Source of the DNA: Candidatus Tectimicrobiota bacterium
GTDB lineage: Bacteria > JACPUC01
Direction of reading: 5' to 3'
Length of the DNA: 64,000 bases
NCBI GenBank assembly: GCA_016192455.1
Contig: JACPUC010000003.1
Location: 62,001-126,000, forward strand
The notes under the pieces are model-generated. The model worked only from the letters and a program-made list of their open reading frames with translations, searched no databases and was not told the DNA's origin. Position numbers and translations under genes: made by a program. Below, piece by piece: positions 3,330 through 27,245 of this stretch (its first letter is position 1; every line of letters begins with the position of its first letter).

Positions 3330-3391
3330 CCCGCGGCGTCTCCGCGGCCCCTCCCCGCGGCAGCCCGCGGCCCGCGCCCGCGGCGCCCTAG

Positions 3392-3663
3392 TATCGTGTC
3401 CCCTACGTTCCATCACCTAATCCTGAGAGGGGACCTTCTCCCCAACCGCGCCCGCGGGGGCTGATCGTAGGGGCGGGGCTTGCCCCGCCCGCAACCTCAG
3501 TCTAGGAAGGAACCGTGTCTCCTCGCGCGCCCCGGCTTGGAGGGGCGGTTCGCGAACCGCCCCTACGGGATGGGAGTGTGGGGGAGCATGGGTTCCTCAC
3601 AAGCCCCTTGCCAATGCAGCGAACAGCGCCGCAACGATGTGAGCGAACTTCTGAGACGCAACA
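3392..3663 (+). mobile_element. MITE-like element, copy A (272 bp)
   Basis: The left end TATCGTGTCCCCTACGTTCC and the reverse complement of the right end, TGTTGCGTCTCAGAAGTTCG, match at 12 of 20 positions, giving imperfect terminal inverted repeats. The element is flanked by the direct repeat CTAG (3388-3391 and 3664-3667). It contains two strong GC hairpins (3470-3490 and 3541-3564) and no credible coding region. Copy B at 10562 is the same length and differs at about five positions. The right-hand CTAG supplies the TAG stop codon of the minus-strand NIPSNAP gene. No transposase of this type is present, so the element is presumably moved in trans. Confidence 0.8.
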
Positions 3664-4281
3664 CTAGCGCAGCGGCGAGCAGGCCGCCGGCAGGCAGATT
3701 TTCACCTCTTGGCTGAGCATGAAGTCGCGCGTCTTCGGCGGCCAGTAGTCCTGCTTGCTGGCCTCGGCGCGCAGCTTGGCGCGCGCGTTGAGGTCGGGGT
3801 ACGCCCAGATGTGGATGAACTGGTTCAGGGCGCCGAACTCGCTGGTGAAGGCGGCGACAAGGGGAGAGATGGTGACCCGCTTCGGCATCACCTCGCCGAA
3901 ACGCTTCAGCACCTCCGGCAGCGTCCCCGGCCGGTAGGTGTAGGTGCGCACCTCGAAGACGCCTCCCGTCTCCTGGGGTTGCGGCTCGGGAGAGAACGGC
4001 GCGGGCTTGGCGATCATCGTGTGCTGCCGCAGGATGGTGTTCGGCGGGAACTTCGGCGGCCACTCCTGCGTCTGCCGGGATGCCAGGCGCACCTCGTCAC
4101 GCTGCTGCAGGCTTTCGTAGGGCCAGATATGAATGACTTGGTTGAGCGGCCCGATCTCGGTATGCCAGAGGGCCAGCAGCGGGGAGTAGACCGTCCGCTT
4201 CGGCAGGACCGCGGCGAAGCTGCGCTCGAACTCGGGCACCATGCCGGCGCTCAGGTCGTAGGTGCGTATCTCGTAGATCAT
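3664..4281 (-). CDS. NIPSNAP family protein, two tandem domains
   Basis: A 205-residue protein made of two NIPSNAP-type alpha/beta-barrel repeats, about residues 1-100 and 108-200. Each begins with a similar strand (MIYEIRTYDL and VFEVRTYTYRPG) and has an internal NQxIHIWxY motif, so it looks like an intragenic duplication or a fused dimer. Bacterial NIPSNAP proteins are small soluble dimeric-barrel proteins, mostly of unknown role and often near catabolic genes. The ATG at 4281 starts directly at the first domain; longer frames upstream belong to another gene. The stop codon TAG coincides with the CTAG target duplication of a MITE. The upstream glycosyltransferase gene ends 22 bp away on the same strand, so the two are probably cotranscribed. 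Confidence 0.88.
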   Translation of the reverse strand: MIYEIRTYDLSAGMVPEFERSFAAVLPKRTVYSPLLALWHTEIGPLNQVIHIWPYESLQQRDEVRLASRQTQEWPPKFPPNTILRQHTMIAKPAPFSPEPQPQETGGVFEVRTYTYRPGTLPEVLKRFGEVMPKRVTISPLVAAFTSEFGALNQFIHIWAYPDLNARAKLRAEASKQDYWPPKTRDFMLSQEVKICLPAACSPLR

Positions 4282-4303
4282 GGCAATCCTCCTTGCTGCC
4301 CTG

Positions 4304-6202
4304 CTAGCGGGCCTGCTCCGCCGCCGGGGCTGGTTCCCCTGCCGCAATCTGGGACGAACGAAGCGCCTCGCGGCCGGAAAGCTCGTGGAACTCCTCCTGG
4401 AGCCGCCGCAGCCAGGAGGCGTGGTCGGGGAAGGCGCGGAGCAGGGCCTGCGTCTCCGCGTAGAGCGGCTCCAGGTCCGTGTCGCCCCGCGCGCGCTTCT
4501 CGCGCAGCAGCACGCAGCGCGCATCCGGGTCGTTCCAGAAGACCTCGACGAGGTTGGCGATGCGCGCGATGCGCTCGTCGCGGCGTCCCAGCTTGCCGAG
4601 GACGGCGGCCAGCTTGCGCAGCACCGGCGGCACGCCGGGGCGCACCCGCAGCGAGCGCTGCCAGCCGACGGCCGCCTTGATGCGCTCTCCCTGCCGATCC
4701 CAGAGATCACCGAGGCGATCCCAGGCCGCCGCGCCGAGGATGGCGCCGCACTCCTCCAGCCGCCGCGCTGCGTCCCGCAGGTGCTCGTAGTGCGCCTGCT
4801 GCCAGGCGACCTTGAAGAGGAGGGCGTGGAAGGGATCGCGCTCGTCGACGATGGCAAGTCCGTCGAGCATCTCCTCCCGGAGCGCGCTCCCCTCCAGGAT
4901 CAGCAGGCAGTTGAAGAGGGCCTTCTCGGCATCCTCGGCGGCGTTGAGGAGGGCGAAGAGCTGCCCGAGGTTGAAGTAGCCCAGGGCGTAGTCCGGCAGC
5001 GCCTCGACCGCCGCCAGGGCATCCCGGACCGCCTGCGCCAGGAGCTGCTGCTCGATCTCCGGCTGGTTGTCGACCAGCGAGGCGAGGCAGGCGTGCAGCA
5101 CGGCCCGCGCATTCCAGGCGCGCGCCTCGCCCGGCGCCAGCTCCAGCGCCCGGCTAAGGAGTTGCCGCGCCAACTCGCAGGGCGCCACGCCCCAGGTCCT
5201 CCCCATGCGCTGGTAGACATGGTTGAACGCCTGCACCCCTTGCCAGTAGAGCTGCTGCGGCTCCGCGAGGCGTGTGGCGAAGCGCCGCGCGCCGCGCCCC
5301 CGGCCGGCGGCGCGCCCGCGCACCCCCTCGAGCAGGGCCTGGAGCGGCACGCGCGGCGGCCTCGCCAGAACGTTCGCCCGCCCCGCCGCCGCGATGCGCC
5401 GGCGCTCCTCCTCGTGGCTGAGGTAGTACTCCAGCCGCGCCTCGAAGTTCTCCTCGTTGTAAAGGACGCAGTCGACGCCGTCCGTGAAGCGCTCGCCGAT
5501 CTCCAGGTTGTCGGCTTCCATGAACAGGAGCGCCTCGCTGAGGGCGATCTCGTAGACGCGGAAGTTGAGGTCGCTCTGCAGCGACTGGTTGAAGGCGATC
5601 CTGCTGCGTCCGAGGGCGCGGTAGTAGGCGGGCGGGTCGAGCTGCTCGAAGAGCCCCACCCGCCACCTGCCGGAGAGCCGCGCGATGCGCCGCAGGTAGG
5701 CATCGCGCCGCGGGTAGACCGGCCCGTAGGCGCCGGCGAAGAAGATGTCGTAGTCCTTCTCCGGCGAGGGCCGCGCCTCGTTGAGCGGGTAGCGCGAGCT
5801 GTACACCTCCCAGGGCTCGACGTTGGGGTAGCCGAGGTCGCGCAGGAGCTGCGTGCACTTCGCACCCGCCACGATGGCGTCGAAGCGCCGCAGGTTTTCG
5901 CGCAGGCTCGTGAAGGCGCGGTTCCAATCGCAGACGATGGCCAGGGTGAAGCAGGGGCACTCATCGAGGCCGGGAGGGAAGGTGTGGTGCTCCGCCCAGA
6001 AGAAGATCAGCACATCCGGCCGCCAGGCGCCGAGCTGCCGCGCCATGGCCTCGGTGATCGTCTCGCGGTGCGGCTCATAGACGAGGTCGGCCGGCGGCGT
6101 GAGCTGCCCGGCCTCGTGGAACAGCTTGATGCTGATGTCCGCCGCAAGGCCCTGGAACATCAGGTGCGTGGGCCGGTTGAAAGGGCCGAAGAGCACCTTC
6201 AT
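4304..6202 (-). CDS. CgeB-like glycosyltransferase with helical (TPR-like) C-terminal half
   Basis: A 632-residue cytoplasmic protein. Residues 1-280 resemble CgeB/Glyco_trans_1_2 glycosyltransferases: a Rossmann-like N-terminal half, DIFFAGAYG at 152-160, and the nucleotide-sugar-binding half with RVYEIALSEALLFMEADN and DGVDCVLYNE around 215-250. From about residue 330 to 600 the protein is Ala/Leu-rich and helical with repeats of TPR character (for example YALGYFNLGQLFALL), ending in a low-complexity tail. CgeB-type enzymes modify spore surface or cell-surface glycans, and TPR tails usually recruit the acceptor. The start at 6202 is chosen because MKVLFGPFNRP is a natural domain start; the longer frame is Arg-rich read-through. 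Confidence 0.78.
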   Translation of the reverse strand: MKVLFGPFNRPTHLMFQGLAADISIKLFHEAGQLTPPADLVYEPHRETITEAMARQLGAWRPDVLIFFWAEHHTFPPGLDECPCFTLAIVCDWNRAFTSLRENLRRFDAIVAGAKCTQLLRDLGYPNVEPWEVYSSRYPLNEARPSPEKDYDIFFAGAYGPVYPRRDAYLRRIARLSGRWRVGLFEQLDPPAYYRALGRSRIAFNQSLQSDLNFRVYEIALSEALLFMEADNLEIGERFTDGVDCVLYNEENFEARLEYYLSHEEERRRIAAAGRANVLARPPRVPLQALLEGVRGRAAGRGRGARRFATRLAEPQQLYWQGVQAFNHVYQRMGRTWGVAPCELARQLLSRALELAPGEARAWNARAVLHACLASLVDNQPEIEQQLLAQAVRDALAAVEALPDYALGYFNLGQLFALLNAAEDAEKALFNCLLILEGSALREEMLDGLAIVDERDPFHALLFKVAWQQAHYEHLRDAARRLEECGAILGAAAWDRLGDLWDRQGERIKAAVGWQRSLRVRPGVPPVLRKLAAVLGKLGRRDERIARIANLVEVFWNDPDARCVLLREKRARGDTDLEPLYAETQALLRAFPDHASWLRRLQEEFHELSGREALRSSQIAAGEPAPAAEQAR

Positions 6203-6522
6203 GGGATCATGGCCTCGCAGGCTCGCATCGCCGCGGCGCCCCCTTGGTCGAGAGCCGCGGGTCGCGGCGGACGGTGAGGGATCGGGGCGCGGCGGAGCTG
6301 GCAGCGTAGCCAAGGGCGCGGCGACCCCCGCGGCCCTCGCCGCGGCAGCCTTGCCGCCCCCAAGGCTGCGCCCCGCTCTCCCCTTCCTGTCGCGCCAGGA
6401 CTGGCGTATGCTGAGAGCTCGCGCAGCCCGACCCGCGTCGGCAATCTCCGGGGAGACGACCGGCGCCGGCGCTCGAACCCCGGCGTGCAGGGCAGCTTGA
6501 ACTGAGCTGAGTGGAGATGTCC
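6203..6522. other. divergent intergenic region with a palindrome
   Basis: This gap separates the minus-strand glycosyltransferase from a plus-strand secreted protein gene. It contains the perfect inverted repeat CGCCAGGACTGGCG at 6393-6406, immediately followed by TATGCT (6407-6412), a plausible -10 box with no clear -35. The palindrome could be an operator. Nothing else is recognisable. Confidence 0.35.
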
Positions 6523-7377
6523 ATGAAACGCGGCAATCGACCCGGCAGAGGGGCGGGAACCCACGTCCTCCTCGGCGTGATCCTGCTCGGCGGTCTTCTT
6601 CTCTCAGCGCGGCAGGGCGGCGCGGCTCCCCGGGCCCCGCTCCTCAACATCTTCCCCCAGCCGCTGGTGCTCAGCGAGGCGGTGCGCGTCGGCCAGTTCG
6701 TGCGCTACCGGCAGAGCGGCGGACCGGAGCTGTTCACCTGGGAGCTTGCCGCGGTCGGCAAGGAGACCGTCGACAGCAAGGAGCAGGTGTGGCTGGAACT
6801 CCACTTCCAATACCCCAACCGCCTGCAAGGGCGCGAGATGACGATGAAGTCGCTCTACGAGGTGGAGAGCCTGCGGACGAGCCCCTGGGGTGTGCCGGCG
6901 CGCCCGAGCCAGCTCATCATGCTGCCGCCGGGGTTCACCGCGGCGCTCGCCCTGCCGCCCGGCTCCATCAGCAGCATGGTGCAGCAGATGACGGCCGCCG
7001 ACGGCGCGCCGAAGCTCGATCTGCGGGGCTACTTCGCCAGGCGCGCTGATCTCCCCGAGGAAGAACTGCGCCTGCCCGCGGGGACGTTCCGGACCCGCGT
7101 CTGGCGCGCCGTCATCGAAGGCGTGAGCGTGGCCGCCTACTTCACGCCGGAGGTGCCGCTCTCCCACCTTGCCCTGGTGACCATGCAGAGGAAGGGGACG
7201 CCCGAACCAGTGCGCGTCGAGCTCCTGGCGATGGGGGAGAGCGCCGCGACGCGCATCACCGTGCCGGTGGTCGACCGCATGCTCAGTCCGGCGCAGCACC
7301 CGGCGGCCGCGCCTGGCGCCGCGCCGTCCCCGGCGGCTCCCCGGCCCGCGGACCGCCCGGCGGGCGCCGGCAGGTGA
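6523..7377 (+). CDS. secreted hypothetical protein
   Basis: A 284-residue protein that I do not recognise. It has an Arg-rich n-region, a hydrophobic stretch (VLLGVILLGGLLLSA) and a small-residue site near GGAA, so it is probably exported. The mature part is a soluble alpha/beta domain with FVRYRQSGGPELFTWELAAV near its start, and it ends in a Pro/Ala-rich tail (about 35 residues) that looks disordered. Of the in-frame starts GTG 6511, ATG 6517 and ATG 6523, the last has the best-spaced GGAG. It stands between divergent and convergent neighbours and is probably transcribed alone. No catalytic motif is visible. Confidence 0.7.
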   Translation: MKRGNRPGRGAGTHVLLGVILLGGLLLSARQGGAAPRAPLLNIFPQPLVLSEAVRVGQFVRYRQSGGPELFTWELAAVGKETVDSKEQVWLELHFQYPNRLQGREMTMKSLYEVESLRTSPWGVPARPSQLIMLPPGFTAALALPPGSISSMVQQMTAADGAPKLDLRGYFARRADLPEEELRLPAGTFRTRVWRAVIEGVSVAAYFTPEVPLSHLALVTMQRKGTPEPVRVELLAMGESAATRITVPVVDRMLSPAQHPAAAPGAAPSPAAPRPADRPAGAGR

Positions 7378-7402
7378 GGAGCGGCGGACGCGTCGCGGCC
7401 CG

Positions 7403-8197
7403 TCAGGAACGCGCCCGCGCGGCGGCCTCGTGGTGCGGTTCGTTGCGCTCGATGATGTCCAGGATGCGCTCCTCGAACTCGACCAGCTCGGCGCGGCTGG
7501 CGCGCGTGGGGCACTGCACGTCGTAGAGCACCCGGCTCGGCTTGCCGAGGACGATCAGGCGGGAACCGATCTCGAGGGCCTCGTGGATGTTGTGCGTGAT
7601 GAGCAGGCAGGTCTTCTTCGTCTCGCCGATGAGGGTCAGGAAGACCTCCCGCAGGCGCTGCGCGGTGGACTGGTCGAGGTGCCCGAAGGCCTCGTCGGCG
7701 AAGAAGACGTCGGGCGACAAGCAGAAGGCGCGCGCGATCCCCACGCGCTGGCGCATGCCGCCGGAGAGCTCGTGCGGGTAGGCGTCCTCGAAGCCCATGA
7801 GCTCGAGCTTGTGCAGCCAGTGCCTGGCGATCTCACCTTGCTCCGCCTCGGAGTAGCCGAGGATCTCGAGCCCCACCTTGGCGTTCGCGAACGCTGTCCG
7901 CCACGGCAGCAGGCGGTCGGTCTGGAAGATCACCCCGAACTTGGCGCGAAAGAAGTCGAAATCCTGGTACGGGTCTCTGCCGAGAACGGTAATGGAACCC
8001 GCGGTCGGGTTTTCCAGCCCGAGGAGCAGGTTGAACATCGTCGACTTGCCGCAGCCGGTTTTGCCGACGATGGAGACGATCTCGCCCTCCCGCACCTCGA
8101 GCGTCAGGTCATCCACCGCCACGAAACGACTGCCGTCCACGCTGGTGAAGACGTGGCGCACATGCTCCATCTGAACCACGGGCGCGGAGGGGATCAT
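7403..8197 (-). CDS. ABC transporter ATP-binding protein (taurine/nitrate/sulfonate type)
   Basis: A 264-residue ATPase of the TauB/SsuB/NrtD group. The Walker A is GKTGCGKST, the Q-loop VIFQTDRLLPW, the signature LSGGMRQRV, and the Walker B VFFADEAFGHLD with the catalytic Glu present. The switch His is in LITHNIHEA. Its ATG overlaps the permease stop in an ATGA arrangement (8194-8197), implying translational coupling. It energises import of the ligand captured by the binding protein encoded first in the operon (order on the minus strand: binding protein, permease, ATPase). The ligand is not predictable from the ATPase. Confidence 0.93.
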   Translation of the reverse strand: MIPSAPVVQMEHVRHVFTSVDGSRFVAVDDLTLEVREGEIVSIVGKTGCGKSTMFNLLLGLENPTAGSITVLGRDPYQDFDFFRAKFGVIFQTDRLLPWRTAFANAKVGLEILGYSEAEQGEIARHWLHKLELMGFEDAYPHELSGGMRQRVGIARAFCLSPDVFFADEAFGHLDQSTAQRLREVFLTLIGETKKTCLLITHNIHEALEIGSRLIVLGKPSRVLYDVQCPTRASRAELVEFEERILDIIERNEPHHEAAARARS

Positions 8198-9030
8198 TGG
8201 ATACCCCCTTCCTTCGACGGCCGCCAGCGCAGCAAGTGCCGTTCGAGGAGGAGCAGGAGGTACTGCGTGAGGAGCAGGAAGATCACCAGGATGAGCGTCC
8301 AGGCAACGGCTTTCGGCATGTCGAAGAGCTCCTGGGCCAGCAGGAGCTTGTTGCCGATGCCGACCGTGGCGCCGACCAGCTCCGCCACGATGACGACGCG
8401 CGTGGCCAGCCCGATGTTCACCTTCCAGGAGGTCAGCACCGCCGGCAGCATGCCAGGCAGAACGAGCTTGCTGAAGAGCTGCCGGCGCGTCGGCCGCATG
8501 GCGCGCAGCATATCGTAGTAATCGCGCGAGATGCCCTTGATGCCGTCATGGATGATCAGGCTGTAGTTCGGCAGGCAGCCAGCCAGGAGGATGAAGGCGA
8601 CGCGGAGTTCGACCGGCTTGAACCAAATGATGGCGAAGATGACCCAGGAGAGCGCCGGCACCCCCATGATGAAGTGCAGGACCGGCAGGATGTACTTCTC
8701 CAGGGTGTTCGAGAACCCCATCAGCACGCCGACGATGATGCCGGCAAGGAAGGAGAGGCCGAGCCCGATGAAGATGCGCATGATCGTGCGCAGGGTATCG
8801 ACCATCAGCGTCGAGCTGCTGACGATCTCCACGAACGAGACGATGATGGTCGCGAAACTCGGCACGAGGTAGCGCGGCAGGAAGAGGGAGAGAATCTGCC
8901 ACATCACGAGGATGATGAGGACGGAGATGACCGGTTCCTTGCGGGAGGCGAGGGCGCCCCACCCGCGAGTCACGGCTCCGGCATCTTCGCTCACCGCGGC
9001 GATCTCGGCCTCAAGGGCTTTCGTACGCAT
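8194..9030 (-). CDS. ABC transporter permease (taurine/nitrate/sulfonate type)
   Basis: A 278-residue integral membrane protein with about six hydrophobic segments, for example PVISVLIILVMWQILSLFL, FIGLGLSFLAGIIVGVLMGF and WTLILVIFLLLTQYLLLLL. The EAA-type cytoplasmic loop that contacts the ATPase lies around residues 175-205 (YYDMLRAMRPTRRQLFSKLV followed by LPGMLPAVLTSWK). The N-terminal 30 residues are a cytosolic, charged extension. It belongs to the BPD_transp_1 superfamily. It sits between the binding protein gene (149-bp gap) and the ATPase gene (4-bp overlap), forming a complete importer. Confidence 0.92.
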   Translation of the reverse strand: MRTKALEAEIAAVSEDAGAVTRGWGALASRKEPVISVLIILVMWQILSLFLPRYLVPSFATIIVSFVEIVSSSTLMVDTLRTIMRIFIGLGLSFLAGIIVGVLMGFSNTLEKYILPVLHFIMGVPALSWVIFAIIWFKPVELRVAFILLAGCLPNYSLIIHDGIKGISRDYYDMLRAMRPTRRQLFSKLVLPGMLPAVLTSWKVNIGLATRVVIVAELVGATVGIGNKLLLAQELFDMPKAVAWTLILVIFLLLTQYLLLLLERHLLRWRPSKEGGIQ

Positions 9031-9179
9031 GCGCCATCACCCCTCCCGCCACGTCGCCCCCGTCGGCCCCCTCGTCCAGCGCAGCTCACTCCTGGACGAC
9101 CGCGCACCCCTCGCCGCTTCGGGAGGGGAGCCTCGCGAGCCCTCCCCGCGGCGTCCCCCCTCCTCGCCGCCGCCGGGCG

Positions 9180-10145
9180 CTACTCCTTCAGGCCGGTGTA
9201 GATGATGCCGTCGTCAGGCATCTCTTTCATGTAGCCGATTTCCAGGCCGGCCTTGAAGACGTCCTTGATCTGCTCCGCAATGGCTCCGGCGGACACCACG
9301 TCGTAGGCCAGGCGCTTCGCGCCCAGCGCCGCCTTGATGGCCGCGGGTGCGATCCCCGTCGCTCCGCTGACGATCGCGGCCGCCTCGTTATGGTGGCTCG
9401 GCACCCACCCCTCGAGGTCCTTGAAGGCGCGGTAGACCTTCTGAATGATCTCCCGGTTGCCGGCAACGAAGTCTTCATGCGCCGCCACCCCGAGGTAGCC
9501 GCGCATCGGCCGCTTGTTGTAGCGCAGCCAGTCATCCACGTACTCGATGTTACGGAAGCGCCCCGGATTCTTGTCCAGGATGTGCGAGAGATTCGGCTCC
9601 CAGACTTGCGAGGCGTCCACGCGCTTGGCCAGCAACAGCGTCCCCAGCCCAGGAGCGTTCGAGGACTGGATGCGCACCTTGTTGAGATCAACTCCCGCCT
9701 TCAAGACGAAGTAGCGGAACATCGCGTAGTTCGTCGTCACCGTGTCGGCGGCGATGGTCTTCCCCTCCAGGTCCTTGAGGGTTTTGAGGTTGGGGTCCTC
9801 CGTCAGGAGGGCGCCGTGGAGCGGCACGACGTTGAAGAGCCACACCGACTTCACGCCCTTCAGGCGGCGGTTCGCCTCGGCAAGGAGCGACGAGGAGAAG
9901 GTGATCTTGTCGCGGCCGGCGGCGAAGTCCATGTTCGCCGCCCGGCTCTGTTTGAAGAGCCATTTGATCTTCACGCCGTTCTTCTCATCGAACTTGTTGG
10001 CCGAGAGCATGCTTGCGGTGGAGTGGCCGAAGGAGGGTTTATCGAAGGAGCTGATCTCGACCTCCGGCATCTGGGCCAGGGCGGTGGGCGCCAGGAGCGC
10101 CGCGATGCTGACGAGAAGTGTAAGTATATTCACAACGCGCTTCAT
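9180..10145 (-). CDS. ABC transporter substrate-binding protein (NMT1/SsuA-like)
   Basis: A 321-residue periplasmic binding protein with a classical signal peptide (positive n-region MKRVV, hydrophobic core, cleavage after ALA near residue 24). The fold is the NMT1/THI5 or SsuA type 2 periplasmic-binding form: DLEGKTIAADTVTTNYAMF marks the hinge region. Of the two ATGs at 10151 and 10145, the inner one has a correct AGGGGAG spacing. As first gene of a binding protein-permease-ATPase operon it sets ligand specificity; relatives bind taurine, sulfonates, nitrate, pyrimidine precursors or aromatic acids. A thiamine-precursor role has no support here, because no TPP riboswitch is upstream. Confidence 0.88.
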   Translation of the reverse strand: MKRVVNILTLLVSIAALLAPTALAQMPEVEISSFDKPSFGHSTASMLSANKFDEKNGVKIKWLFKQSRAANMDFAAGRDKITFSSSLLAEANRRLKGVKSVWLFNVVPLHGALLTEDPNLKTLKDLEGKTIAADTVTTNYAMFRYFVLKAGVDLNKVRIQSSNAPGLGTLLLAKRVDASQVWEPNLSHILDKNPGRFRNIEYVDDWLRYNKRPMRGYLGVAAHEDFVAGNREIIQKVYRAFKDLEGWVPSHHNEAAAIVSGATGIAPAAIKAALGAKRLAYDVVSAGAIAEQIKDVFKAGLEIGYMKEMPDDGIIYTGLKE

Positions 10146-10561
10146 GAGCATTCTCCCCTCATGCGACCCTACGGTTGTCAAGCCGTGAAGCGACAAGGCA
10201 ACGATGCGGCAAGTGTAAACCGAGGCCGGCTCCACTGTCAATGTGCCTCCCCGCCTGCCGTGACAGGATGCGGTGGGTGGCGGCGGGCTGACGCGCTGGG
10301 GAGTGGAGAGTGCTGGGCGGGCGGCTGGCAAGGGAGGCGCCGGCATCTGTCAAGAGAGGCACGCGGCGTGACGACGAAGCCGTTGCGCTCCCCTTCTTGC
10401 GCCAGCCGCTGTCCAGCCGCACTGGCCCGACCGCGACCGGGGCAGAGGCCGGCTGGTGATGAGCTGGATCGGAGAGACGCTGGAGCCGCGAACAAGGGAA
10501 GCAGGATGGCGGCGCGCCGGCGGGGCGCCGAGGCGCGGAAATGTCTGCGGGGAGGGGCTAG
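10146..10561. other. intergenic region upstream of the ABC operon
   Basis: About 415 bp between the start of the binding-protein gene and MITE copy B. I see no coding potential with family character, no riboswitch core and no strong promoter boxes. The operon promoter is expected here but cannot be placed. Confidence 0.3.
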
Positions 10562-10833
10562 TATCGTCTCCCCTACGTTCCATCACCTAATCCTGAGAGG
10601 GGACCTTCTCCCCAACCGCGCCCGCGGGGGCTGATCGTAGGGGCGGGGCTTGCCCCGCCCGCAACCTCAGTCTAGGAAGGAACCATGTCTCCTCGCGCGC
10701 CCCGGCGTGTAGGGGCGGTTCGCGAACCGCCCCTACGGGATGGGAGTGTGGGGGAGCATGGGTTCCTCACAAGCCCCTTGCCAATGCAGCGAACAGCGCC
10801 GCAACGACGTGAGCGAACTTCTGAGACGCAACA
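10562..10833 (+). mobile_element. MITE-like element, copy B (272 bp)
   Basis: Same length as copy A and nearly identical to it, with about five substitutions, so both moved recently. It is flanked by CTAG at 10558-10561 and 10834-10837. As in copy A, the right-hand CTAG contains the TAG stop codon of the adjacent minus-strand gene, here the J-domain protein, so the insertion left the reading frame intact. The two internal GC hairpins are conserved and could act as transcription terminators for that gene. Confidence 0.82.
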
Positions 10834-11775
10834 CTAGCGGACGGCGATGAGGAGGTAGAGGTCCCCGCAGGCGGCGGGCGTGCCCCCGGGCATGCCCTTG
10901 CCGGCCAGGCGCAGCTTCGTGCCATCCCGGACGCCGGCGGGGATCTTCACTTTGATGCGCTCTTTCTGGCCGTTGCGGCGGTAAGCGATGAACTTCTCCG
11001 CGCCGCGCGCCGCTTCCCGCCTCGAGAGGGGGAGCCGGAAACTGAGATCGGCTGCGCGCGCTCCGTCGGCCCCGGCGCTCTGCGCGGCGGTTGCCACGGG
11101 CGGCGCTTCGTCAACCGTCTGCTGGTTGGCCCCCGGCGCGCTTGGCGCGCCCACCAGATAGCCGAGCGCCTTGCGGCCCAGTTTGGCGAGCAGCGACTCG
11201 CCGGGGTTGCGCGCGCCCTCGTCCTCGTCCGCCTCGAGGCGGGCGTTTCGGGCGGCGCCGCCCATCCGTCCCCCCTCGTCCCTGTCTCCGACGTGCCGCC
11301 GACCGAAGCCGGTGTTGCCGAAACGCCACGTCCTCCCCAAGGGACCGAAGATGACCCCGCCGAAGAAGATGCCGCTGCGCTTAAAGAAGAGGTTGTTGAA
11401 GAACTGCTCGTCGAAGCGGATGCCGAAGCGCTGGAACTCCCGCTGCAGCTCGGCGAAGATGTCGGCCGCTTGCGGGTTCTGGAAGATGTCGCGGAAGATC
11501 TCCTCCTGCGAGTAGGAGAAGCCGCCCGCCTGGCGGCGATCAAAGCCGGCCGCCCGCAGGTGGTCGTACTGGGCGCGTTTCTCCGCATCCATCAGCACGC
11601 CGTACGCCTCGCTGATCTCCTTGAAACGCTCCTCGGCGGCGGGGTTGCCGCCGTTGCGGTCGGGATGGTACTCGAACGCCAGCCGGCGGTACGCCTTGCG
11701 AATCTCCTCCGCTGGGGCGTTCGGCTCCACGCCGAGAATCTTGTAGTAGTCCTTCGCGGACGAGCGCGGGCTCAT
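10834..11775 (-). CDS. J-domain protein with DnaJ-type C-terminal region
   Basis: A 313-residue co-chaperone. Residues 8-75 form a J domain with the diagnostic HPD (in [10 protein letters not shown]), which stimulates the ATPase of DnaK/Hsp70. A Phe/Gly-rich middle follows, including a conserved EIFRDIF segment, then a charged linker. The last 60 residues match only part of the peptide-binding C-terminal domain ([21 protein letters not shown]). There is no Cys-rich zinc finger, so it is a type II or III J protein rather than DnaJ itself. ATG 11775 is preferred to a TTG at 11796. Its TAG stop is the target duplication of MITE copy B. Confidence 0.85.
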
Positions 11776-11953
11776 CGTTCCCTCTTCCGCGGGCAACCAG
11801 GCCGGGAGATACGAGAAATCACCCCGCCGCGCGCCTTCACAGCGACACCGGCAGCGTCAACTCACCTCCAACATAGGGATAGCCGCCAGGCCTGTCAATG
11901 AGTCGTCATGTCCACCCCGCTGCCACCGCAGCGGTTGCCGCTGGCGCGAGGGG

Positions 11954-13279
11954 TTACGCGCCGTACGCCTCCGCCAGCAGGGTGATGGGATGGACGACGC
12001 GGCAGGTCAGGCCGGCGCGCGCCACCCCCAGGCGAAGCTGCAGGAGGCAGCCGGGGTTGCCGCTGGCGATGATGTCCGGCGCGGCGGCGGCGATGTGCGC
12101 CATCTTGCGGTCGAGGATTTGCAGGGAGAGGTCGGCGTGGGCGAGGGTGTAGATGCCGGCGCTGCCGCAGCAGGCGTCGGCCTCCGGGAAATCGACCAGC
12201 TCAACTCCCTGGATCAGGCGCAACAGCTCGCGCGGCTGGCGGCTGATCTGCTGCCCGTGCAGGAGGTGGCAGGGGTCGTCATAGGCGACGCGCGCCGCGA
12301 CGGCCTTCGGCGGCCGCTTCAGCTCGAGCGCCGCCAGGAACTCGCTCACGTCGCGCACCTTCGCCGCGAAGGCGCGGGCGCGCTCGGCGTAGGCCGCATC
12401 CGCCGCCAGGAGCCGGCCGTAGCTCTTCAGGTGCGCGCCGCAGCCGGCGGCGTTGACGAGGACGGCGTCGCAGGCCAGCTCCCCGAGCTGGTCGATGACG
12501 CGCCGCGCCATGGCGCGGGCCTCCTCGCCCCGCCCCGCATGGGCGTGCAGGGCGCCGCAGCAGCTCTGCGGGCGCGGCACCAGGACGTCGCAGCCGTTGG
12601 CCCGCAGGACGCCCACCGTCGCCTCGTGGACGTCATCGAAAAGCACGTCCATGACGCAGCCGGTCAGCAGCGCCACCGTGGCCCGGCGCTCATGGCGGGC
12701 CCGATACACCGGCTTCGCCCGCAGGCTGAAGGAGCCCCCCGCCGTGGGGGGGAGCATGGCGGCGAAGTTGCGCTGTTCCGGCGACAGGAGCGCCCGCGCC
12801 GGCCCCAGGAGGAGCGGCCGCGCCCAGCGCAGCAGCGCAAAGGCGGCGCGCAGCAGCGCCGGCCTGGCAATCAGGTGGCGCAGCAGCAGTTCGCCCTGGC
12901 TCCCCTGCTGGTAGCGCTGCGGCGCCGCCCGGTAGAGGCGTTCGCGCGCCGACTCCATCAGCGCCCCGAACCGCACCCCGGAAGGGCAGGCCGTCTCGCA
13001 GGCGCGGCAGTTGAGGCAGAGGTCGAGGTGCTTGATGTAGTTGTCGGTCAAGCCGATGCGCCCCTCGGCCTGGGCGCGGATGAGGTAGATGCGGCCGCGC
13101 GGCGAGTCGGTCTCGCGGCCCAGGGCACGGTACGTCGGGCAGTGGTCGAGGCAGAGACCGCAGTGGATGCACGGCAACGCCAGGTCGATGCCGGATCCGT
13201 TCGCCTCGCCGGGCGCCGTGGTCGAGGCGGCGGCGTCGGGGAGATCGGCGCGCTCGCCGCCGGGAGTGAGGGGACCCAC
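11954..13279 (-). CDS. glcF: glycolate oxidase iron-sulfur subunit GlcF
   Basis: A 441-residue protein with two ferredoxin-type [4Fe-4S] motifs near the N-terminus (CIHCGLCLDHCP and CLNCRACETACP) and two Cys-rich CCG domains (CCGALHAHAG about residue 245, CCGSAGIYTL about residue 375). This is the layout of GlcF and related (S)-2-hydroxyacid dehydrogenase Fe-S subunits, which pass electrons from the FAD subunits to the quinone pool. It begins with GTG at 13279, one base after the glcE stop, so translation is probably coupled. Third gene of the glcD-glcE-glcF operon. D-lactate or another 2-hydroxyacid is an alternative substrate. Confidence 0.9.
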   Translation of the reverse strand: MGPLTPGGERADLPDAAASTTAPGEANGSGIDLALPCIHCGLCLDHCPTYRALGRETDSPRGRIYLIRAQAEGRIGLTDNYIKHLDLCLNCRACETACPSGVRFGALMESARERLYRAAPQRYQQGSQGELLLRHLIARPALLRAAFALLRWARPLLLGPARALLSPEQRNFAAMLPPTAGGSFSLRAKPVYRARHERRATVALLTGCVMDVLFDDVHEATVGVLRANGCDVLVPRPQSCCGALHAHAGRGEEARAMARRVIDQLGELACDAVLVNAAGCGAHLKSYGRLLAADAAYAERARAFAAKVRDVSEFLAALELKRPPKAVAARVAYDDPCHLLHGQQISRQPRELLRLIQGVELVDFPEADACCGSAGIYTLAHADLSLQILDRKMAHIAAAAPDIIASGNPGCLLQLRLGVARAGLTCRVVHPITLLAEAYGA

Positions 13280-13280
13280 G

Positions 13281-14645
13281 CTAGATGCCTCCTGCGAATC
13301 GGCCGGGGTTCATCACCCCGTTCGGGTCGTACTGCTGCTTCAGGGCGCGCATGATCGGCAGCGCCCCCCCCACTTCGCCCCAGGTCTCGCAGTGCTGCTT
13401 GAACGCCGGCTCGGCGCGCTCCAGGATGAGGCAGCCCCCCTGCGCGACGGCCCGCTGGCGCGCCCGCCGCACGCTCGCCGCGGCTTCCTCCAGGCGCTCC
13501 GCTTCGTAGAACGCCGCAAGCCGCGCCTCGCCGTTGCCGGCCTGGGCGTAGATGTAAGGGGTGAAACCGCCGGCGCGCAGATCATCCTGCACCGCCTGGA
13601 GGAAGCCGGCGAGGCCGGAGACCGGCAGGCTGGCGGCGGCGAGGAAGAACGGGCGATCGAAGGAGGCCAGCACCTTCGGGAAATCCTGGATGATGTTCCA
13701 GATCATCGTGGTGTCGAGGCCGTCCAGGACGATCCACTCGCTGCTCAGGCCGCCGGCGTGCCGCCGCGTGATCTCGTCCAGGCTGCGCTGCAGCTCGCTC
13801 TGCGTCCCCTCCAGGCCGATGAGCAGGGCGCACGTCTCCCCGGCGGGCTCGAGGTTGGCGCGCTCGGCCAGCAGGCTGAGGGCCGGCTGGTTGAGAAGGT
13901 CGAGCGCCGTCGGCACGAGGCAGGACCCGCGGATACGCCGCAGGGCCTCGCAGGCGCCGTCGAGCTCCCGCGCCATGAGGAGGAGGACGCTCTCCTTCAG
14001 CGGCAGCGGCTGCAGCTTGCACGTGCACTCGACAAGCACGCCCAACGTCCCGAAGGAGCCGATGTAGAGCTTCATGAGGTCGTAGCCGGTGACGTTTTTG
14101 ACGACCCGGCCGCCGGCGCGCGCCACCGTGCCGTCCGGCAGCACGATCGTCGTCCCCAGGACGAGGTCGCGCATGCCGCCGTGGCCGTAGCGCCGCGAGC
14201 CGACGCTGGCCGCCGCCATGATGCCGCCGATGGTGGCCTCCTCGACGAACGGCGGGTCGATGGGGAGCCATTGGCGGCTGGGGCGCAGCATCTCCTGCAG
14301 CCTCTTCAGGCGCAGCCCGGCCTGCATCGTGGCGGTGAGGTCCCCCGGCACGTGGTCGACCAGCCGGTCGAGGCGCTCCAGCCCAAGGACGAGGCCGGGA
14401 CGAGCCGGCACGTTGCCCGTCGCCAGCTTGCTGCCGCCGCCGCGCGGCCAGACGGCGACCCCGCGCGCGTTCGCCCAGCGCAGCACCGCCGCCACCTCTT
14501 CGACCGTGGCGGGGAAGACGGCCCCCAACGCCGCCACGCCGTCGACGGCGTAACCGTCGGCGCCAGTCGGGGCTACGGAGGAGAATGCCTCGGCGGGCAG
14601 CTCGCAGCGCAAGGTTGAGAGGTCCAGGGTCGTCGGGTCGGTCAT
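13281..14645 (-). CDS. glcE: glycolate oxidase FAD-binding subunit GlcE
   Basis: A 454-residue FAD_binding_4 (PCMH-type) protein. The FAD-binding half includes PRGGGSKLATGN, the ATIGGIMAAASVGSRRYGHG stretch and VVKNVTGYDLMKLYIGSFGT; the C-terminal half is the FAD-oxidase C domain. It is longer than E. coli GlcE (about 350) but has GlcE-like spacing. ATG 14645 is chosen; a GTG nine bases upstream is possible and there is no strong ribosome-binding site. It lies between glcD (30-bp gap) and glcF (1-bp gap). With those subunits it forms a membrane-associated oxidase converting glycolate to glyoxylate. Confidence 0.9.
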   Translation of the reverse strand: MTDPTTLDLSTLRCELPAEAFSSVAPTGADGYAVDGVAALGAVFPATVEEVAAVLRWANARGVAVWPRGGGSKLATGNVPARPGLVLGLERLDRLVDHVPGDLTATMQAGLRLKRLQEMLRPSRQWLPIDPPFVEEATIGGIMAAASVGSRRYGHGGMRDLVLGTTIVLPDGTVARAGGRVVKNVTGYDLMKLYIGSFGTLGVLVECTCKLQPLPLKESVLLLMARELDGACEALRRIRGSCLVPTALDLLNQPALSLLAERANLEPAGETCALLIGLEGTQSELQRSLDEITRRHAGGLSSEWIVLDGLDTTMIWNIIQDFPKVLASFDRPFFLAAASLPVSGLAGFLQAVQDDLRAGGFTPYIYAQAGNGEARLAAFYEAERLEEAAASVRRARQRAVAQGGCLILERAEPAFKQHCETWGEVGGALPIMRALKQQYDPNGVMNPGRFAGGI

Positions 14646-14675
14646 GTTCGTCACGCACGAGGGAGCGGGGGCTGC

Positions 14676-16109
14676 TCAGGCGGAAACGTTCGGCGCCTTG
14701 GCGAAGGGCCTGGTCTCGACACAGCGGCCGGGCGTGGGAAAGACCTTGCCGGGGTTGCACAGCCCCTCGGGGTTGAAGACGCTGCGCACCCGCTGCATCA
14801 GCTCGAGGTCTTGGTCAGTAAAGAACCAGGGCATCCACTCGCGCTTCTCCAGGCCGATGCCGTGCTCGCCGCTGAGCGAGCCGCCGAGATCGACGCAGAC
14901 CCGCAAAATCTCCTCCCCCGCCTTCAGGGCGCGCTCCTGATCGCCGGGCTTGCGGTCATCGAAGAGCACGAGAGGGTGCAGGTTGCCGTCGCCGGCGTGG
15001 AAGACGTTGGCGATGCCCAGGCCGTGCTTCTCGACAATGGCGTAGATGCGCCGCAGCGCCTCCGGCAGCTTGGTGCGCGGGATCACGCCGTCGTGGGTGT
15101 AGAAGCTGCGCGTCACCCGGCCCAGCGCCCCGAAGGCCTCCTTGCGCGCCTTCCAGAGCAGGGCGCGCTCGGCGTCGTCCTTGGCGACGCGCACCTCCAG
15201 GCTGCCGTTCTGCCGGCAGATGGCCTCGATGCGCTCAGCCAGCTCGTCGAGGCCGTCGCGGATGCCGTCGAGCTCGATGAGGAGCACCGCCCCCGCAGCC
15301 GCCGGGAAGCCGAGGTGCAGGTACGCTTCCACCGCCCGCAGCACGAAGTGGTCGATCATCTCCAGGGCCGCCGGGATGATGCCGGCGCCGATGATCTCCG
15401 TCACCGTGGAGCTGGCGGCATCGATGCTCGGGAAGACCGCGGCCAGCGTCTTGTACGCCTCGGGCAGGCGGGTCAGGCGGACGATGATCTTGGTGATGAT
15501 GCCGAAGGTCCCCTCCGAGCCGACGAGGAGGCCGGTGAGGTCGTAGCCGGGGCCGCGTCCCGCGCGGCTGCCGCAGGTGATCGTCTCGCCGTTCGGCAGC
15601 ACCATTTCGAGCCCCAGCACGTGGTTGGTGGTGACCCCGTACTTCAGCGTGTGCGGGCCGCCGGAGTTCTCGGCCGCGTTGCCGCCCAGGGTGCAGGCCG
15701 CCTGGCTGGAGGGGTCCGGCGCGTAGTAGAGCCCCATCCCCTGCACCGCCTGGCTGAGGCGCAGGTTCACCAGGCCCGGCTCGACGACCGCCACCTGGTT
15801 GACCTCGTCGATCTCGAGCACGCGGTTCATCCGCGCCATCTCGATGAGCACGCCCCCCTCCACCGGCAGGGCGCCGCCGCTCAGGCCGGTGCCGGCGCCG
15901 CGCGCCAGGAAGGGGACGCGCAGGCGGTGGCAGAGGCGCACCACCTCGGCGATCTGCTCGGCCGTCGTCGGAAAGACCACCGCCGTCGGCAGGGCGCGCT
16001 CAATCGTGTGGCCGTCGCACTCGTAGACCAGCAGCTCGTCCGCCGCCGAGGTCACCGCCTCGACCCCGAGCAGCTTTTCCAACGACTGGATCAGGCTTGC
16101 GGATTCCAT
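14676..16109 (-). CDS. glcD: glycolate oxidase FAD-linked subunit GlcD
   Basis: A 477-residue FAD-linked 2-hydroxyacid dehydrogenase, the expected length for GlcD. FAD-binding marks are FLARGAGTGLSGGALP and CTLGGNAAENSGGPHTLKYG; the catalytic C-terminal domain has FHAGDGNLHPL and the hallmark GEHGIGLEKR. It oxidises glycolate (or D-lactate or another 2-hydroxyacid) and hands electrons to GlcF. First gene of the operon. Together with dihydrolipoamide dehydrogenase and GrdA elsewhere in the window it hints at C2/glycine metabolism, but that link is inference only. Confidence 0.93.
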   Translation of the reverse strand: MESASLIQSLEKLLGVEAVTSAADELLVYECDGHTIERALPTAVVFPTTAEQIAEVVRLCHRLRVPFLARGAGTGLSGGALPVEGGVLIEMARMNRVLEIDEVNQVAVVEPGLVNLRLSQAVQGMGLYYAPDPSSQAACTLGGNAAENSGGPHTLKYGVTTNHVLGLEMVLPNGETITCGSRAGRGPGYDLTGLLVGSEGTFGIITKIIVRLTRLPEAYKTLAAVFPSIDAASSTVTEIIGAGIIPAALEMIDHFVLRAVEAYLHLGFPAAAGAVLLIELDGIRDGLDELAERIEAICRQNGSLEVRVAKDDAERALLWKARKEAFGALGRVTRSFYTHDGVIPRTKLPEALRRIYAIVEKHGLGIANVFHAGDGNLHPLVLFDDRKPGDQERALKAGEEILRVCVDLGGSLSGEHGIGLEKREWMPWFFTDQDLELMQRVRSVFNPEGLCNPGKVFPTPGRCVETRPFAKAPNVSA

Positions 16110-16373
16110 ACGCTAGAAGGTACGGTGAAGAAGAGGCGGTTTGCAAGTCCTTCCGGCTGCGGTGAGCGGAGGGCACGGAAGCGGGAATAGCTTGCCCCGC
16201 GTCTCAAGTTAAAGAATAATGGCGCGCAGACCGCCTCCGCCCCGGGGAGTTGCAACTCCGCCCAGGACATCGGGGAGGGCGGCGGGGTCGCCGCGGTGCG
16301 GCGACCCGGCGGCTGCTGGCCGCGATGCGGCATTACGTCCAAGCCACGAGCTCTGGAAAGGGGGGAAACGCGC

Positions 16374-17000
16374 ATGCAACCGCGCTCCGACTACTACGAC
16401 ATGCCGCCGGACAAGTGGATCAGCTTCAAGTATTGCGACCTCACGAAGCTGATCAAAATCCGCTTCAGCCGCCAGATCAGGAAGCGCTACGCGAATTTCG
16501 ACGCCGCCGTGCGCCTCGGCGAGACGGCCCCCGAGGTGGACCTGCGGGGCGACGACGGCAGGCGCTACCGGCTCTCCGAGCGCGTCGGCAAGAAGTACGT
16601 CGTCATGAGCTTCGGCGCCATCACGTGACCCCCCTACCGCGGGCAGGTGCCCGCCCTGGAGGAGATCGCGCGCGCGTACGACGACGTGGACGTCTGGCAC
16701 ATGTACGTGCGCGAGCCGCACCCGCAGGAGCGCAAGTTCAAGAAGTACTGGCCCCACAAGGACTACGAGCACCGCGTGGCGTACGCCAAGGAGATGCGCG
16801 AAGTGCTGCACATCGCCTCCCCCATCGTCATCGACGGCATGGACGAGAAGGTGCACCACGCCTACGGCAACATGCCGAACGCGGTCTACGTCATCGACAA
16901 GGCGGGCAAGGTCGTCTACAAGGCCAACTGGACCGACTCGCCGGTAATCGATCAGGTGCTCGCCCAGCTCCATGCGGAAGAGACCCCCGTGGCTCGCTAG
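16374..17000 (+). CDS. deiodinase-like / redoxin selenoprotein (in-frame TGA = Sec85)
   Basis: Two open frames, 16374-16625 and 16629-17000, lie in the same reading frame and are separated by a single TGA at 16626-16628. Read through, they give one 208-residue thioredoxin-fold protein whose active site is GAIT-U-PPYRGQVPALEEI, the deiodinase-like TUPPF pattern. Further on it has VREPHPQERK, close to the conserved EAHP of iodothyronine deiodinases and their bacterial relatives. A GC stem-loop suited as a bacterial SECIS follows the TGA. The ATG has AGGGGGG eight bases upstream. The family uses Sec or Cys for thiol peroxidase or redox chemistry; no signal peptide is seen. The TAG stop is the insertion site of MITE copy C. 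Confidence 0.85.
16639..16654 (+). promoter_or_regulatory. candidate bacterial SECIS hairpin
   Basis: GCGGGC (16639-16644), loop AGGT (16645-16648) and GCCCGC (16649-16654) form a perfect 6-bp GC stem with a four-base loop. The loop begins 16 nt after the TGA, at the short end of the distance known for bacterial SECIS elements. It contains the G/GGU character recognised by SelB in E. coli fdhF. Confidence 0.7.
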
Positions 17001-17205
17001 TGTTGGTACTCGCAAGTTCGCTCACATAGTTGCGGTGTTGCTCACTGCATCGGCAAGGGGCTTGTGCGGGACCCATGCTCCCCCACATCCCCCCATCCCG
17101 TAGGGGCGGTTCGCGAACCGCCCCTACAAGGCGGGGTGCGCGAGGGGACAAGATTCCCTGGCAGACTTCGGTTCCGGGCGGGGCAAGCCCCGCCCCTACG
17201 AAGCG
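17001..17205 (-). mobile_element. MITE-like element, copy C (one end lost)
   Basis: Begins at 17001 with TGTTGGTACTCGCAAGTTCG directly after the CTAG that ends the selenoprotein gene, then follows the same order of blocks as copy E, including both GC hairpins up to about 17203. After that it departs from the family and the other terminal repeat (GGGACACGATA type) cannot be found before 17289, so the distal end is deleted or diverged. Relative to its gene it has the same orientation as copies A and B. Confidence 0.65.
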
Positions 17206-21006: not shown

Positions 21007-21098
21007 CCCGAGGTTCGGCTCCGGCGCGCCAGGGGGCGCGGCGCTCAAGAAAGGGAAGAGGGCCGGCTCTGAGTTGCCGCGACGGGCCGATGGAGCAG

Positions 21099-21298
21099 TA
21101 TCGTGTCCCCTAAGTTCCACCACCTAATTCTGAGAGGGGCCCTTGTCTCCTCGCGCACCCGCAGGGGCTGATTGTAGGGGCGGTTCGCGAACCGCCCCTA
21201 CGGGATGGGGGTGTGGGGGCGCATGGGTCCCTGATAAGCTCCTTGCCAATACAGCGAGCAAAGCCGCAACTAGGTAAGCGAACTTGCGAGACGCAACA
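21099..21298 (+). mobile_element. MITE-like element, copy D (200 bp)
   Basis: The ends TATCGTGTCCCCTAAGTTCC and GCGAGACGCAACA match the family. It is flanked by GCAG at 21095-21098 and 21299-21302, which shows that the 4-bp repeat is a true target duplication and not part of the element. It is shorter than copies A and B because one of the two GC hairpins (the GGGGCGGGGC one) is missing. It lies between the uspA-like gene and the metallo-hydrolase gene and touches neither. Confidence 0.75.
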
Positions 21299-21413
21299 GC
21301 AGGACAGTGAATCGCTCGCGGGGTTGCGCCGCGCCCGGCCCGCGCCGTGCCGCCTCAGCCCCTCGGGTCAGCTCCTCGCCGCCCAGCCGATCTGCAAGGG
21401 AGACGCGCCGCCC

Positions 21414-26309: not shown

Positions 26310-26698
26310 CCCTACCCGCCGCCGCGACCGAAGCTCCGCCGCTTCCCGCCAAGAGGCCTCGGGCGCCGCGCGCCGGCCGCCACCTCTGCCACCCCAGCAT
26401 CGATGCCGCGAGGGACCCTCGCCCATCTCTGCGCCCCAGGGCCGCCGCCTCGCGCTGAGTGGGGGCGTGGGGGGCCAATGATCCCCCGCGAATCTGTTTG
26501 CTTGGCCGCTGAGGGAGAGAGGGGGATTGCCCTGAGTCCTCACCGCCCTTATGCTGAGCATGGCGGCGGCGCGAGGGCTGGCGGGTTTCCCCTCGGGGAG
26601 GGTGGTAGACTCGCGCGCGGCGCGGGGGCGCGTCGGCGGGGGGGGTACACCTGCCTGCGCAGCCGTCCGCAAGCGTGCCAGGAGCTGACGTATTCTAG
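26310..26698. other. 389-bp gap before MITE copy E
   Basis: No coding region, promoter or RNA structure that I can support. It ends in CTAG (26695-26698), the left target repeat of MITE copy E; here the CTAG is not a stop codon of any recognisable gene. Confidence 0.3.
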
Positions 26699-26972
26699 TG
26701 TTGCGTCCCACAAGTTCGCTTATCTATTTGCGGCGTTCCTCGCTGTATTGGCAAGAGGCTTGTAAGGGACCCATGCTCCCCCATGCCCCCATCCCGCAGG
26801 GGCGGTTCGCGAACCGCCCCTACAAGGCGGGGTGCGCGAGGGGGCGCGGCTCCCTCGCAGACGTAGGCGCCGGGCGGGGCAAGCCCCGCCCCTACGATCC
26901 GCTCCTACGGAGTGCGCGGAGGAGACAAGGTCCCCTGTCAGAATTAGGTGGTGGACCTTATGGGACACGATA
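26699..26972 (-). mobile_element. MITE-like element, copy E (274 bp)
   Basis: Runs from TGTTGCGTCCCACAAGTTCG to GGGACACGATA with both internal GC hairpins, in opposite orientation to copies A and B. The flanks are CTAG on the left and GTAG on the right, so the target duplication has one mismatch. A second, diverged element starts four bases after its right end. Confidence 0.75.
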
Positions 26973-26976
26973 GTAG

Positions 26977-27162
26977 TGTTACCTCACAAAAGTTCCATTC
27001 TTACTCTTAATTCGACGCCTTCTTCGTGCTATGCGGGAGGGGGAGTTTTGGGGGGGCCCTTGCTCCCCTACGCTCCCAATCCGCGCGAGCTGCGTAGCAG
27101 ATCGCGTAGTCGGGGTGCGCGAGGGGGCGCGGCTCCCTCGCAAAGTTATATGATCTAATCTG
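26977..27162 (-). mobile_element. diverged MITE-like element with alternative hairpin, copy F
   Basis: Starts TGTTACCTCACAAAAGTTCC immediately after the GTAG that ends copy E, and contains a different central hairpin (GCGAGCTGCGTAGCAGATCGC) and the shared block GGTGCGCGAGGGGGCGCGGC. The far end is not well defined; CTGAGAAACAGCACACG near 27160 may be a decayed terminus. It belongs with copies G and H to the second hairpin subtype. Confidence 0.5.
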
Positions 27163-27245
27163 AGAAACAGCACACGAAGAAGCCGGCAGGCCCGTGATCA
27201 ACGGGGCGGAGCATCGGCGCCCGCCGGCAACCTGCGAGGAGCGCC

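Follow-up and report, generated by a model that had tools for sequence, protein, structure and literature searches.

The bacterial insertion sequence IS630 inserts into the TA of 5'-CTAG-3' (Tenzen 1990/1991, as related in passages of PMC2170065 and PMC6811581), and IS870 of Agrobacterium vitis, a member of the IS630 family, is described in a passage of a citing paper (PMC6471742) as having a transposase stop codon that is made by the target. Both are autonomous. The MITEs examined here resemble IS630 in their CTAG target, a likeness drawn from the published description as opposed to a sequence comparison, and resemble IS870 in having CTAG at both ends. However, CTAG ends the ORF of IS870 itself, whereas the MITEs are gene-free and reside on the stops of host genes, and similarity between the ends of IS870 and those of the MITEs is weak (7-11/20). 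Cut-and-paste transposition of ISY100 and Tc1-mariner elements involves duplication of a TA target, as here (excerpt of PMC2170065); nearly all ISY100 insertions are reported to be at TA, and that excerpt mentions no need for CTAG, whereas the present MITEs favour CTAG. MITEPsy1 of Pseudomonas syringae is a bacterial MITE that inserts at CTAG or YTAA; it is 100 nt in length, is described with a 4-nt duplication and possibly stems from ISPsy2 (perhaps IS5), and the excerpted text notes no residence at stop codons (PMC3189936). The literature that was searched yielded no report of a MITE or insertion sequence located at a stop codon, which is not proof of novelty. CTAG targeting (IS630), the target-supplied stop (IS870) and the rarity of CTAG in bacterial genomes are already published, and what is added here is the residence of MITEs on host stops. 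In combination, these three published facts account for the ability of a mobile element to multiply in a compact genome and to contact conserved genes while leaving them intact, and they provide a simple, testable rule for predicting the positions of such MITEs in other genomes.

MITE copies in the window and their target

The window (the whole stretch of 64,000 nucleotides that was analysed) is from a 4.46-Mb MAG comprising 31 contigs, which is 88% complete. Searches with copy A of the window and with a second consensus revealed tens of copies of two MITE families in the MAG, F1 (~274 bp) and F2 (~195 bp), whose members are short, multi-copy and gene-free, with terminal inverted repeats and a target duplication. 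Identity between the left and right ends is 13/20 within F1 and 15/20 within F2.

Three F1 copies in the window lie flush with the 3' ends of genes. Copy A (3391-3664, minus strand) is a G...C element with TA duplicates at 3389-3390 and 3665-3666, contained within CTAG flanks at 3388-3391 and 3664-3667, and it adjoins the TAG stop (3666-3664) of a minus-strand NIPSNAP gene (PF07978; 3664-4281). Copy B (10561-10834, minus strand), with TA duplicates at 10559-10560 and 10835-10836 and CTAG flanks at 10558-10561 and 10834-10837, adjoins the TAG stop (10836-10834) of a minus-strand DnaJ-domain (J-domain) gene (PF00226, PF01556; 10834-11775); A and B are 98% identical, with CTAG at both ends of each. 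Copy C (17000-17202, plus strand) is truncated at its far end, covering profile positions 2-200 of 272, and follows a plus-strand T4 deiodinase/redoxin-like gene (PF00837; 16374-17000), the TAG stop of which (16998-17000) is part of a CTAG at 16997-17000. The proposal in the first-pass annotation that each of these copies abuts a CTAG whose TAG is the stop of the neighbouring gene was borne out at all three. The deiodinase/redoxin-like gene has an in-frame TGA that is read as Sec in the prediction, making its product a probable selenoprotein. Elsewhere in the window, copy D (F1 with an internal deletion; 21095-21302, minus strand) has GCAG on both sides and is not at a stop, and copy E (F1; 26695-26976, plus strand) is intergenic, likewise away from any stop, with CTAG and GTAG flanks. 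An F2-family MITE (26977-27174, plus strand) directly follows E on its right side, the two elements sharing the GTAG as a single 4-mer. This tandem arrangement (26695-27174) would fit a second insertion into a CTAG that the first had regenerated.

Flanks across the genome are mostly CTAG or one-base derivatives. The CTAG on the far side of A and B had been recorded previously as a 4-bp duplication of the target; it is indeed present at both copies, but the duplicated target is TA, each CTAG flank consisting of an outer target C or G, the TA duplicate and one inner base that is the terminal base of the element. Duplication of all 4 bp was rejected since duplication of TA better fits the outer and inner bases and matches the IS630 relatives. 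In F1 flanks, the TA on the stop side and the outer C or G are retained, and insertion at CTAG with TA duplication is the rule for this family; the exception is the right end of F2, which often reads TG. Because the inner flank base belongs to the element, the G of the stop is the terminal base of the element and the G of the target is on the far side. Where the far end of a stop-flush copy is resolved, the target base there nearly always corresponds to G, and TAG therefore existed before insertion.

Copies A-C are very probably non-autonomous MITEs that were mobilised in trans by an IS870-type transposase of the IS630 family, with insertion at CTAG and survivorship explaining their residence on stops. 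Such a transposase would cut at the terminal repeats (G-TGTTRCGTC... / ...C), and the element would then enter the TA of CTAG, with duplication of the TA. An element that starts with G and ends with C would rebuild TAG on whichever side faces the gene, such that insertion at a native C|TAG stop should leave the protein unchanged. The same terminal bases could feasibly have the opposite effect if the element entered coding DNA, since the G of the stop is an element base and any in-frame TA would become TAG upon insertion, truncating the gene. That the present stops arose in this manner is scarcely credible, given the far-side G that marks a pre-existing TAG and the Pfam domains that reach the C-terminus of the adjoining proteins, to position 65/66 in a cold-shock protein and to the last residue (161/161) in YajQ of a Nitrospira MAG. 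Indeed, stop-flush genes are mostly full length as judged by Pfam, including those for malate dehydrogenase, RelA/SpoT, AtpD, the cold-shock protein, SDR, Rrf2 and others, in agreement with the earlier expectation that the gene is unharmed; the stop-flush genes at loci L060 and L032 had no Pfam match.

CTAG availability and residence on TAG stops

Statistics were derived from 759 kb of merged stretches, picked mostly around MITE copies and representing a non-random part of the 4.46 Mb, in which 597 genes were called with a home-made codon-usage script. Profile matches were tabulated with their flanks and neighbouring genes, and insertions were counted if they had a traceable end and a score of at least 45. 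Within these stretches CTAG occurs at 0.15 of the expected frequency, with a density of 0.096/kb in called genes versus 1.08/kb in intergenic DNA, i.e. 11-fold lower in coding sequence. When CTAGs in MITE flanks were left out, 61 were located at stops, 172 in intergenic and 51 in coding DNA; TAG stops represent about a quarter (61/233) of the MITE-free non-coding CTAGs because the word is very rare and nearly absent from genes. The earlier suggestion that CTAG is preferred, being a word that is rare in coding DNA and for which stops form a large share of the remaining sites, agrees with these counts. Since CTAG is near-absent within genes and common at TAG stops, over a third of the insertions with a traceable end (25/68) lie exactly on a TAG stop, as do 19 of the 38 for which both ends were resolved. 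None of the 68 insertions was flagged within a called gene, compared with 51 of 284 background CTAGs (p=1e-5), and divergent regions hold 1 of 40 insertions compared with 32 of 159 background CTAGs (p=0.004). Insertions in coding CTAGs and in divergent promoter regions have presumably been purged by selection, which would leave stops and 3' intergenic sites.

The size of the stop excess over the non-coding background varies with the subset counted, several countings having been tried, with an odds ratio of 1.64 (p 0.095) for all copies and of 2.8 (p 0.004) for two-ended copies (19/38 versus 61/233). With divergent regions excluded, the excess for all copies is not significant (OR 1.24, p 0.55), whereas a mild excess stays for two-ended copies (OR 2.2, p 0.04). 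The association with stops mostly follows the availability of CTAG and tolerance of insertion, with a small residual excess on top. The two-ended values, with and without divergent regions, would favour recognition of stops or gene 3' ends as such by the transposase or by host factors, for example via coupling to translation termination, beyond the requirement for CTAG. Recognition of this type appears highly improbable, however, as C precedes TAG more often at occupied stops (17/27) than in other TAG-ending genes (66/204; p=0.003), the 27 stops in this count taking in two stop-flush copies that are absent from the 25/68 count. Furthermore, all 27 scored stop-flush copies are on TAG despite 84 called TAA stops that also contain TA, and plain intergenic sites hold at least half of the insertions.

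In copies A, B and C the TGTTGCG/TGTTGG end is the stop-side end (3/3), and the first-pass annotation had accordingly proposed a common orientation, with possible selection for the hairpins as terminators. The shared orientation holds for these three copies but not for the family; tabulation of orientation across the 759 kb gave five F1 copies with the TGTT end at the stop versus six with the other end. The elements do place strong GC palindromes directly past the stop, and retention of the hairpins to end transcription of the gene upstream would be in keeping with the frequency of insertions at stops (25/68) and with the orientation of F2, which leans 11:3 (p=0.057). Nevertheless, a terminator function of this kind is quite improbable. 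The even orientation of F1 argues against it, as does the disappearance of the all-copy excess when divergent regions are excluded, and no intrinsic terminator (a GC hairpin followed by a T run) was detected in copy A, the copy that was scanned. Moreover, one MITE copy, observed at the ends of contigs C1 and C22, is situated between atpD and atpC, and another separates an ABC-2 permease gene from a co-directional ABC ATPase gene that has its start codon a few bases beyond the element.

In the youngest F2 clade the right dinucleotide is TG in 8 of 12 copies and the left is TA in 11 of 12, and on the non-stop sides of F2 copies the dinucleotide is altered in 1 of 7 left ends versus 10 of 12 right ends (p 0.006), with the outer C or G mostly retained. 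The TG is at odds with a simple TA duplication. With TG at that end, an F2 element inserted facing right would abolish the stop, and this may underlie the weak orientation lean.

Parental element and copies in other genomes

Scanning of species genomes with the left-end pattern matched nine stretches. One of these (L141) is a complete IS that has a G-TGTTGCGTCTCAGAAATTCG end and is flanked by CTAG at either side. The last codon of its 362-aa HTH and DDE_3 transposase is CAC, followed by a stop that is formed by TA and the target G. Among eight plasmid relatives of this transposase, seven (L152-L158) end the ORF at CACTAG, and in the other (L159) the ORF stops earlier and CACTAG lies further downstream. 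A matching 5' end with CTA is present in seven of the eight, and was not found for L156; the layout at both ends is L141-like in six. In IS870 itself (L174), CTAG is present at both ends and the transposase stop is supplied by the CTAG target. The F1 left end is identical to the L141 3' end at 19/20 positions, a value that is conditioned because L141 was found by that pattern. The F2 right end, which is independent of the search, gave 13-15/20 against L141, L152, L153 and L175 (15/20 for L141 and L152), and the F1 right end gave 11-12/20 against L141.

A DDE_3 transposase with an HTH located between ends of this type was observed in L141 and its annotated relatives, and the search of the 88%-complete MAG revealed no transposase with ends that match. 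The trans-acting source may lie outside the assembled part, and membership of the family does not depend on a matching transposase in the genome. The single DDE_3 protein of the MAG (C6:221623-222036; L150, L151) is a different IS630-family transposase with ACTAAGTTGC-type ends, its preceding HTH part being in another frame, as if by frameshift. It was rejected as the parent of the MITEs since its ends look different. Additionally, IS481, IS701, IS5 and piggyBac/IS1380 were considered as parents and were dropped once the IS630-type element had been found. A scan of viral contigs gave no match. Empty sites were not seen directly, since the relatives detected were related at domain level at best; in 40 other genomes the only matches were weak ones to DnaJ.

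In a Nitrospira MAG, each of the three full-length copies has its right end against a stop; these stops belong to the genes for YajQ and a malic enzyme and to an ORF without a Pfam match. The latter two stops now read TAA because the end base of the element is T. An Acidobacteria MAG has six copies, of which one is clearly flush with the stop of a gene resembling that for glycerol-3-phosphate dehydrogenase. It is possible, if somewhat short of probable, that TAG stops are a general refuge for MITEs of the IS870 type in different phyla, where specificity for CTAG would allow the element to rebuild the host stop as it builds that of its own transposase, and copies would accumulate 3' of conserved, even essential, genes.

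Several minor features of individual copies were also observed. The central hairpin is modular, with identical arms and differing palindromes (GGGGCGGTTCGCGAACCGCCCC, GCGAGCTGCGCAGCAGCTCGC and others) in F1 and F2 copies and in L142, L143, L144 and L149, and some of the palindromes are found outside MITEs also. The copies at C1:364704-364913 of the MAG (G000; L104) and C22:69-269 (L101) represent the same MITE after the AtpD C-terminus, with near-identical immediate flanks. Their central palindromes differ and the AtpD sequences diverge further out, and these may be paralogous loci, strain variants or an assembly artefact. At the ABC transporter locus (L043; C6:200194-200383), the right end of the element contributes an AGGAG-like sequence immediately ahead of the ABC ATPase start codon.
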